From an uncultured Flavobacteriales bacterium (GTDB lineage: Bacteria; Bacteroidota; Bacteroidia; Flavobacteriales_G; Salibacteraceae), in the NCBI GenBank assembly GCA_913020435.1, contig CAJVZZ010000014.1, forward strand, positions 1-64,000: 64,000 bases of DNA. Reading direction: 5' to 3'. The notes below the pieces were generated by a model. The model made no database searches. It worked only from the letters and a program-made list of their open reading frames with translations, and had not been told where the DNA came from. This document shows positions 6,567-9,402 of this stretch, piece after piece. Position 1 is the first letter of the stretch; each line of letters opens with the position of its first letter. A program made the position numbers and the translations under genes.

Positions 6567-7832
6567 GTGCTAAGATCCCTAAAAATTTTCCTTTTTGCAA
6601 GTCTACTTTCACTACTTGGGACATCTTGCGGTGGTGATGAAAACTTAGCAGATATTTCTATGCCTAATGATTCTATCCCAGAGGTCAAGGTGAATATGGC
6701 CTATGGATTAAATCTTGATTCTTTTATCGTAAAAGAAGGGAAAATCAAGAAAAATCAAATGCTTTCTCACATCCTTCTTATTAATCATATTCCTTGGCCT
6801 GAAATTGATCGTTTGGTCAAAAAATCTAAGGATATTTATGATGTTCGCAAATTGAGAAGTGGTAAAAACTATACAGTCCTTTGTAAAAAAGACAGTACCG
6901 AGAAAGCTGAATATTTTATTTATGAAGCTAATGCAATTGACTATGTGGTCTTTGATTTAAGAGACTCTATGCATGTAACGATCGAGCAAAAGGACGTTAT
7001 TGAAACTCGTCGAGAAGTAGCTGGAGTTATTACTTCCTCATTGTACCAAACTCTTATTGATATTGACTGCAGCGCCGGATTAGCAATGGAAATGAGTGAG
7101 ATTTATGCTTGGAGTATCGACTTTTATAGAATTCAAAAAGGGGACCGTTTCAAGGTGATTTTTACTGAAAAATGGGTGGAAGATACTCGTGTTGGAATTG
7201 GTGCTATTGAAGCTTGTTTTTTTGAACATCACAAAGAAAATTTTTATGCTTTTCCATTTGAACAGGATCAAGTTATTGACTTTTTCGACGAGAATGCAAA
7301 AAGTCTAAGAAAAGCATTTTTAAAATCTCCATTAAAGTTTGGGCGTATCAGTTCTAGCTTTACCATGCGTCGCTATCACCCAGTACAAAAACGCTGGAAA
7401 GCCCACTTAGGAACTGACTATGCTGCTCCAACTGGTACTCCAATTTTAGCCGTTGGAGACGGAAAGGTAATCGAGGCACGCTATAAAAAGTTCAATGGAA
7501 ATTATGTGAAGATTAAACACAACGGAACCTACACCACTCAATATCTGCACATGTCAAAATTTGCCTCAGGAGTTCGGTCTGGTAAGTTTGTAAGGCAAGG
7601 AGACATTATTGGATATGTTGGGTCAACTGGCTTGGCGACAGGACCTCATGTCTGTTTTAGATTTTGGAAAAACGGTAAGCAAGTTAACCACCGAACTCAA
7701 AAATTACCTGCTTCTATTCCGGTAAAAAAAGAACTCCTCCCTCAATTCACCGCTAATATGGATACGCTGAAGTTTCAATTGGATGAAATTCTATTTGAAA
7801 TAAAGGCCGCCGCAAAACTGGCTCAAAAATAA
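6567..7832 (+). CDS. M23-family peptidoglycan metallopeptidase, lipoprotein
   Basis: A 421-residue protein starting at GTG. The lipobox LGTSC places the lipidated Cys at residue 21. A LysM/OapA-like region (about 45-200, with LRSGKNYTVL) precedes a LytM domain (about 255-385). Zinc ligands His280 and Asp284 (HLGTDYAA) are present. The usual HLHFE motif reads GPHVCFRF (His361, Cys363), so the second histidine is replaced by cysteine. I recall this variant from other Bacteroidota, and Cys could still bind zinc. Likely an outer-membrane DD-endopeptidase acting in cell-wall growth. Monocistronic. Confidence 0.9.
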   Translation: MLRSLKIFLFASLLSLLGTSCGGDENLADISMPNDSIPEVKVNMAYGLNLDSFIVKEGKIKKNQMLSHILLINHIPWPEIDRLVKKSKDIYDVRKLRSGKNYTVLCKKDSTEKAEYFIYEANAIDYVVFDLRDSMHVTIEQKDVIETRREVAGVITSSLYQTLIDIDCSAGLAMEMSEIYAWSIDFYRIQKGDRFKVIFTEKWVEDTRVGIGAIEACFFEHHKENFYAFPFEQDQVIDFFDENAKSLRKAFLKSPLKFGRISSSFTMRRYHPVQKRWKAHLGTDYAAPTGTPILAVGDGKVIEARYKKFNGNYVKIKHNGTYTTQYLHMSKFASGVRSGKFVRQGDIIGYVGSTGLATGPHVCFRFWKNGKQVNHRTQKLPASIPVKKELLPQFTANMDTLKFQLDEILFEIKAAAKLAQK

Positions 7833-7863: not shown

Positions 7864-8493
7864 CTATTCTGAATTGAGATGATCGGTAAATAGAATACCG
7901 TTTAAGTGATCAATTTCATGCTGAAAAATCACCGATGTAAATCCCGAAACTTCCTCAATGTGCTTTTTTCCATTAATGTCTAAATATTCAAGAATAATAT
8001 TGATAGGCCTAAATACTTCAGCGCTATAATTTGGTATGGAAAGACAGGCCTCTTCCCCTGATTTCTGCTCTTCAGAGTAACTCCTAATAATCGGATTTAT
8101 GTAAATTTCATACGGTTCATTAGTCTTATCAAATCGTTGAACAAGAATTATTTGCCTTCTTAACCCTACTTGTGGAGCTGCAATTCCAACGCCCATATTT
8201 TTTGGGTCTCGAACAGTCCTGAGTAATCGTTTTGAAAAATAATTTACTTGACTTTTATTCTTTTCTAAATTTACCCTTTTAGCCTTTTTTCTAAGAAAAA
8301 CCGAGTCTTTCTTATTGTCAATTGTAAATATTCTAAAAGACTGATTTGGAAATTTTTCATCGATTAAAGCTAGCTCCTTGCGCTTAAATTTTTTAGCCTT
8401 TTGAGCAAATGAAAAGGTAAATGCACATACTCCAAAAAACACTAAAAAAAATCGGAGCACTTTGAAATAGGTATTAAACTTAAAACAGCCCAA
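7864..8493 (-). CDS. Peptide deformylase family protein with a signal peptide
   Basis: The C-terminal 120 residues carry all three deformylase motifs: GIAAPQVG (103-110), EEACLS (metal ligand Cys150) and QHEIDH (His192, Glu193, His196). Cytoplasmic Def begins about 40 residues before the first motif. Here there are about 100, starting with a clear export signal ending FAFS-AQ type at residue 31. The full frame starts at TTG (8493); GTG at 8460 gives a cleaner signal peptide (MLRFFLVFFGVCAF). Export of a deformylase is odd, since N-formyl groups are normally removed at the ribosome. It follows the coiled-coil gene by three bases, so they form an operon. Confidence 0.85.
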   Translation of the reverse strand: MGCFKFNTYFKVLRFFLVFFGVCAFTFSFAQKAKKFKRKELALIDEKFPNQSFRIFTIDNKKDSVFLRKKAKRVNLEKNKSQVNYFSKRLLRTVRDPKNMGVGIAAPQVGLRRQIILVQRFDKTNEPYEIYINPIIRSYSEEQKSGEEACLSIPNYSAEVFRPINIILEYLDINGKKHIEEVSGFTSVIFQHEIDHLNGILFTDHLNSE

Positions 8494-8496
8494 GAG

Positions 8497-9402
8497 TTAA
8501 TCCAGAATAAATTCTGTACTCCCAATTTCGTGATTATCAGCATAAGTATATACAACATACTTACCTGAAGTAACTGAAGTTTTTACGTCCCAATACAGAC
8601 AAATATCAATTTCCTTGTTTTCGTAATTGATCTCTTTTTTAACCGAATACAATCCTCTAACACCATCAAACTCAAACATGTTAGCCTTATCCTCACTTAG
8701 AGTTAATACTTTTCCAGAAGGACCGATAATTCTAGCGTACACTATTTTCTTGCCTGCTTTTGCCAAATCATTTTCACCAATTGTTACACAGGTTTTAATT
8801 TTCTCGACTGATCTAGCTTTTTCAGTCCGCTTGTGAATATTATTGTTTTTAACCTTTTGACCATAAGACTCAATAAAAACTGCTTGAAGCCTTTCCCCTA
8901 TTTTTACTTTTTCAGCAAGTTTAGTTTTTTCAGATTCTAACAAGGTTGATTTATCTCTTTCTTTTCCTAATTCTCCTTTTATGTTTTTATTCTCTGCCAT
9001 TAATTCAATGTTGGCCGTATTTAATGAATCAATGGTATGAACAAAACCTTTCATTATTGTGCGCAGACTTTCCGTCTCCTTTTTAAGCTTATAGATTGTC
9101 CAGTTTCCGTTCTTAACTTTCTGAATCATTTCTTCTACTCGAGTTCTTTCGCTTGCCAATTGAGCATTTAATGTGTCGTTGTCAGATGATAAACTATCAT
9201 ACTGCAGTAACATACCGTTGAGCTCTAACTCCAAATCATTCTTTTCTACTGTGATTTCAGAGTTCTCACCCATTAGCTGTTCCGTCTTTCCTTTTTCATC
9301 AAACAACATAAACATAAGCCCCGCATTAGCCAATATAGAAAAGGCTAATAAGGCAATAAGAATTTTGTTGGATTTATCTTGATTCTCAGGTACTTCAGAC
9401 AT
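8497..9402 (-). CDS. Single-pass membrane protein with long coiled coil
   Basis: A 301-residue protein. It has a short cytoplasmic N-terminus, one transmembrane helix (about 14-35, ILIALLAFSILANAGLMFML), a heptad-rich coiled coil (about 38-175) and a compact beta-rich C-terminal domain (about 200-301) ending in TEFILD. The topology suggests the coiled coil projects the C-terminal domain into the periplasm. The family is common in Flavobacteriia without a named function. The exported deformylase gene lies three bases downstream in the same operon, so the two may work together in the envelope. Confidence 0.8.
   Translation of the reverse strand: MSEVPENQDKSNKILIALLAFSILANAGLMFMLFDEKGKTEQLMGENSEITVEKNDLELELNGMLLQYDSLSSDNDTLNAQLASERTRVEEMIQKVKNGNWTIYKLKKETESLRTIMKGFVHTIDSLNTANIELMAENKNIKGELGKERDKSTLLESEKTKLAEKVKIGERLQAVFIESYGQKVKNNNIHKRTEKARSVEKIKTCVTIGENDLAKAGKKIVYARIIGPSGKVLTLSEDKANMFEFDGVRGLYSVKKEINYENKEIDICLYWDVKTSVTSGKYVVYTYADNHEIGSTEFILD

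Follow-up and report, generated by a model that had tools for sequence, protein, structure and literature searches.

Deformylation is regarded as taking place in the cytoplasm, beside the ribosome, which raises the question of what a peptide deformylase (PDF) with an export signal would do. Such a gene lies on the minus strand of the window, a stretch of 64,000 nucleotides from an uncultured Flavobacteriales bacterium, where the open reading frame at 7864-8493 was confirmed. This frame can start at TTG 8493, giving 209 aa, or at GTG 8460. Since the relative L104 has an ATG at the same place, preceding the same signal region (compared by eye), GTG 8460 is the preferred and likeliest start, and TTG 8493 is probably not the true one. 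In L104 itself (genome G165), the signal region is split over two frames at a poly-T tract, reflecting either an assembly error or a phase-variable tract. The predicted N-terminus of the window PDF reads MLRFFLVFFGVCAFTFSFA followed by QKAKK, with a signal of 19 aa. The predicted cleavage, just ahead of Gln, agrees with the Bacteroidetes Q-rule, by which signal peptidase I cuts before this residue (as given in an excerpt of PMC5837995). The window PDF has no lipobox Cys: the cleavage site reads SFA/Q, and Cys12 (FGVC) is part of the hydrophobic core.

The product matched the Pfam Pep_deformylase profile (PF01327) at 139.2 bits (E 1e-40; cut-off 22.8) and TIGR00079 at 115.8 bits, over its cut-off of 103.95, and scored slightly below the cut-off of NF001159 (121.2 bits for 125). 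Its AF2 model (mean pLDDT 92.6) was compared by VIA-align with solved PDFs, yielding Z 24.5 to 6jf3 (rmsd 0.9, 144 residues) and Z 23.3 to the E. coli chain 1xen. The solved PDFs align with the model from residue 39-40 of 198 through to its end, and the N-terminal addition therefore consists of the 19-aa signal and about 20 further residues. The original prediction had placed about 100 residues, starting with a clear signal peptide, ahead of the motifs; the signal stands, and the addition shrinks to about 39 residues. An extra 100-residue domain ahead of the enzyme is ruled out by the structure alignment, in which the PDF fold begins around residue 40.

The active site had likewise been described as intact in all three motifs and in its metal ligands. 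This is so for the ligands and for motifs 1 and 3, but motif 2 reads EACLS instead of the usual EGCLS. In an alignment of the window PDF with 52 of the 80 homologous loci described below (alignment A1, 53 rows), no variation is seen at the motif 1 Gln, at four positions of motif 2 (Glu, Cys, Leu, Ser) or at three of motif 3 (both His and Glu); outside the three motifs, R109 and D111 are invariant as well. Among the homologues compared, the Ala of motif 2 is shared by L066 alone, ruling it out as a family trait; because L103 and L104, of the window's genus, and L107, of its family, read EGCLS, we treat it as a local substitution. L100, a second PDF of genome G012 that is also exported, reads EGDLS, its Cys metal ligand being replaced by Asp. 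With EACLS in the window and EGDLS in L100, some exported copies may be altered.

Table 1. Features of the exported PDF locus in the window.
Feature	Position	Strand	Description	Basis
Exported PDF, coding sequence	7864..8460	-	198 aa; preferred start GTG 8460	Start chosen by comparison with relative L104
Signal peptide MLRFFLVFFGVCAFTFSFA	8404..8460	-	Predicted cut before Gln20; signal peptidase I type, Q-rule	Rule-based, without SignalP
PDF fold	7867..8346	-	About residues 39-198	AF2 model and VIA-align
Motif 1, GVGIAAPQ	8170..8193	-	Gln97	Sequence alignment
Motif 2, EACLS	8038..8052	-	Cys139, metal ligand; Ala replaces Gly	Sequence alignment
Motif 3, HEIDH	7906..7920	-	His181, Glu182, His185	Sequence alignment
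Membrane coiled-coil protein	8497..9402	-	301 aa; upstream neighbour; core gene of the order	
M23 peptidase with Csd3_N2 domain	6567-7832	+	Convergent neighbour of the exported PDF	Domain match

The original prediction depended on a normal def gene lying elsewhere in the genome, and one was found. The genome (2.95 Mb, 98% complete) holds a second PF01327 gene at C6:51427-51933, a normal def of 196 aa that directly follows a gene taken by eye for ruvX/yqgF, and also encodes methionyl-tRNA formyltransferase (fmt; 225.7 bits, cut-off 201.5). The exported copy is thus not the only def gene of its genome. Another PDF is likewise present in 19 of the 21 genomes chosen from exported-PDF loci. In the other two (G132 and G138), which are MAGs of 1.3 and 1.6 Mb, another PDF was not found; as RuvX is missing too, these MAGs may be incomplete.

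Exported and canonical PDFs differ at both ends. After the HExDH motif, exported proteins have 11-29 residues (median 20, median charge -1; n = 80, window included) versus 39-46 residues (median 42, charge +9; n = 19) in canonical ones, counts that omit four canonical rows (L111, L116, L117, L120) and two other second copies (L085, L094) not caught by the motif pattern, a row at a contig end (L025) and the DUF1684 fusions discussed below. The longest uncharged run within the first 32 residues spans 12-26 residues in exported and 4-13 in canonical proteins, with a slight overlap. The window PDF, with its signal and 13 residues after HEIDH, departs from housekeeping Def, which has a long basic tail and no signal. 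According to an excerpt of PMC9099147, PDF attaches to ribosomal protein uL22 through a C-terminal helix; as judged from its sequences, the exported clade is without the stretch that would hold this helix.

A scan of the genome collection returned at least 592 stretches and at least 573 relatives, of which the best 80 were analyzed. All 80 carry an N-terminal signal, as called by simple sequence rules and inspection by eye rather than by SignalP, so that the export signal first recognized in the window, where it is clear by sequence, proves to be a property of the whole clade. It is of the lipoprotein type in 78 (75 by rule; L012, L062 and L082 by eye) and, in the remaining two (L003, L004), of the signal peptidase I type with Gln, like that of the window. 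By eye, the latter type was also seen in L103, L107 and L108 from the window's family and in L100 and L131 from elsewhere. In the lipobox-rule set of 72, in which the window was wrongly counted, positions +2 to +7 lack acidic residues in 70 proteins and contain one in the other two. For the comparison with L104, dN/dS of the window PDF is about 0.11, dS being saturated for those with L103 and L107. The exported PDF gene is under purifying selection and, with a signal in every one of the best 80 homologues, represents more than a chance event.

Nearly all of these best 80 of at least 573 relatives come from Bacteroidota, with one from Ignavibacteriaceae and one from Neomarinimicrobiota. A tree of 88 rows, which also includes housekeeping and other PDFs, puts the 50 exported rows chosen on one side of a branch (100/99) that recurs in 100% of 200 bootstrap trees, with a stem of 1.45; the tree is without E. 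coli, other distant PDFs and those of most other phyla, and omits L104 (frame break), L111, L116, L117, L120, L085 and L094. The sequences thus place the window PDF in one well-supported clade, which has the fold, the three motifs and the metal ligands in common with cytoplasmic, ribosome-associated Def (PF01327, TIGR00079), and differs from it by its signal, the absence of the 39-46 residue basic tail and its separate position in the tree. Within the order, the exported PDF occurs in 7 of 29 genomes, each scoring at least 239 bits; the match in an eighth, G154, reaches 107 bits and is the canonical gene. A class sample yielded at least 6 of 247 genomes at an E-value of 1e-42 or below, the count being a minimum because mostly 12 candidates were scored per genome, and in the family of genome G360 the gene was found in 17 of 101 genomes and 2 of 22 genera. 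In a sample of 118 genomes, in which the second copies of 20 genomes were fetched (G006, G011, G013 and G111 left out), an exported PDF was identified for the window's gene and G012 only, and second copies were mostly other, cytosol-like PDFs. An exported PDF common across the phylum is therefore rejected; in Bacteroidota its distribution is patchy.

Gene neighborhoods offered a further line of evidence. A partnership with the membrane coiled-coil protein, whose gene was thought to lie three bases upstream, is unsupported. The gap becomes 36 bases once GTG 8460 is preferred over TTG 8493, and the coiled-coil gene is near-universal in the order with or without the exported PDF (27 of 29 genomes versus 7 of 29). 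In G000, G165, G166 and G150 the two genes are adjacent, in G149 and G162 some 6 kb lies between them, and in G163 they are on separate contigs, which rules out an obligate partner. By eye, the order phosphoribosyltransferase, coiled coil, PDF, M23 peptidase is conserved in G166 and G150; G165 shows it too, with an additional gene ahead of the M23 gene. Scans of the window for promoters and terminators gave no more than in shuffles, and a repeat search gave nothing of note.

A different context recurs among the relatives. In 29 of the 80 loci, of Flavobacteriaceae type (L007 and L009, for example), the exported PDF comes directly after rodA, at the end of a same-strand run of four genes, the mreC/pbp2/rodA cluster, with a rodA-to-PDF gap of -7 to 126 nt. 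Three of these genes match MreC, penicillin-binding protein 2 and RodA in L007; the fourth, between MreC and penicillin-binding protein 2, has no NCBIfam match there, and from its position our guess would be MreD. In 19 loci, the opposite strand downstream carries GldC- and GldB-like genes (names from L009). Outside the rodA group, contexts vary among the neighborhoods read. The linkage in 29 of 80 loci hints at a housekeeping role in the envelope.

Another association is a fusion. Among members of G360's family, the PDF frequently occupies the C-terminal half of a longer protein that is itself exported, with DUF1684 forming the N-terminal half, an arrangement confirmed by Pfam in one protein and recognized by motif in 10 of 16 proteins from 17 loci (L144 left out). 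It is recurrent, being seen in L132/L139 (G360) and L138-L153, and one such fusion, seen at full length, has a longer C-terminal tail. In the window's genome, DUF1684 is a separate predicted lipoprotein (signal by eye). The solved relatives of DUF1684 are labelled uncharacterized. An archaeal DUF1684 protein is placed in a thiol-relay group in an excerpt of PMC9426492.

What, then, might this enzyme act on? From the sequence, we infer its location, activity, metal and substrate. Most likely, with a probability that we put at roughly 40%, the Sec-exported PDF deformylates N-termini that escaped cytoplasmic PDF, such as those of N-out inner-membrane proteins. Excerpts of Ranjan et al. 2017 (PMC5454389) report that deformylation on the ribosome is blocked by SRP, and argue that N-out membrane proteins, being out of reach of PDF, tend to retain the formyl group; PMC9099147 likewise supports the view that such proteins stay formylated. 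In the same portions of PMC5454389, the bacterial function of this retained formyl group is said not to be known. These N-termini would be accessible to a periplasmic PDF. Sec would export the window PDF to the periplasm, where signal peptidase I would free it, most relatives being lipid-anchored instead. There it would hydrolytically remove formyl from N-formyl-Met wherever an N-terminus had arrived ahead of the action of cytoplasmic PDF, its substrates being inner-membrane proteins of N-out topology, along with peptides set free from these. Such an enzyme would be a "second-chance" deformylase for which the ribosome is not needed. A precedent is the Bacteroidota glutaminyl cyclase (PgQC), an exported enzyme, mostly a lipoprotein, that modifies protein N-termini in the periplasm (excerpt of PMC5837995); it works in a similar way, and is an unrelated enzyme with unrelated chemistry. 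Because of this precedent and of the linkage to elongation genes, we favor deformylation of self-made N-termini. The patchy distribution (7/29 in the order, 6/247 in the class sample) argues against a generally needed maturation step, and the varied neighborhoods outside the rodA group and the motif 2 variants EACLS and EGDLS likewise count against this reading. More tentatively, part of the Bacteroidota may run periplasmic deformylation as a system, in which a ribosome-independent PDF clade would mature inserted N-out proteins in parallel to glutaminyl cyclase.

Of two serious competitors, scavenging and a changed substrate, the stronger, which we nonetheless regard as unlikely, is that the exported PDF uncaps N-formyl peptides from other bacteria or debris for degradation by periplasmic aminopeptidases. 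Export and a full active site fit such scavenging equally well, and a patchy distribution would suit an accessory nutritional role; however, the neighborhoods read showed no conspicuous gene for a peptidase or a transporter, and the association with elongation genes (29 of 80 loci) speaks against it. That same linkage to rodA and pbp2, the DUF1684 fusion, the long stem of the clade and its invariant R109 and D111 could instead signal a changed substrate, the PDF site cleaving another envelope amide, for instance one linked to the cell wall or to glycans. We consider this rather improbable, since the catalytic residues and the surroundings of the motifs all match those of ordinary PDFs. A decoy that soaks up competitors' PDF inhibitors short of the cytoplasm would require the fold and the metal site alone, and motif 2 does vary in some copies, but the site as a whole is strongly conserved in the clade, and the neighborhoods read show no resistance-gene context, which makes the decoy very improbable. 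Finally, that the protein stays in the cytoplasm, its hydrophobic stretch being untranslated or no signal, is hardly credible despite the GTG or TTG start and the split frame of L104, given a signal in 80 of 80 homologues, a lipobox-type Cys in 78, and later starts before motif 1 confined to a GTG at residue 7 and an ATG at residue 89.

Known PDFs provide partial likenesses to the favored periplasmic deformylase. The closest solved chains, those of Leptospira interrogans PDF (1szz, 1sv2) and Vibrio cholerae Def2 (3qu1), at 132.8 bits with a profile and 84.4 bits with a single sequence, are presumably ordinary PDFs; an exported relative was not found by name in the solved-structure match lists. 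The window PDF also matches plant PDF1B and Plasmodium PDF, organelle-targeted enzymes with a likewise added targeting sequence; these go to sites of translation, whereas the periplasm, its predicted destination, has none. Databases would label the exported PDF simply as peptide deformylase. A limited search of the open-access literature, with subscription papers and preprints mostly outside it, found no account of an exported PDF, and exact phrases such as "periplasmic peptide deformylase" returned 0 open-access papers. If the reading is true, bacteria would deformylate proteins at a second site, the periplasm, and the patchy presence of the enzyme would provide natural plus/minus comparisons for the effect of the retained formyl group, making its function on N-out proteins testable. 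In these bacteria, the exported PDF would also be a second target of PDF inhibitors, outside the inner membrane.

A further set of PDF relatives came to light in the tree. In L090, L093, L095-L099, L101, L102, L129 and L133, WDDC replaces the EGC of motif 2; these proteins form a separate well-supported group, carry no signal and occur in several families of the phylum.
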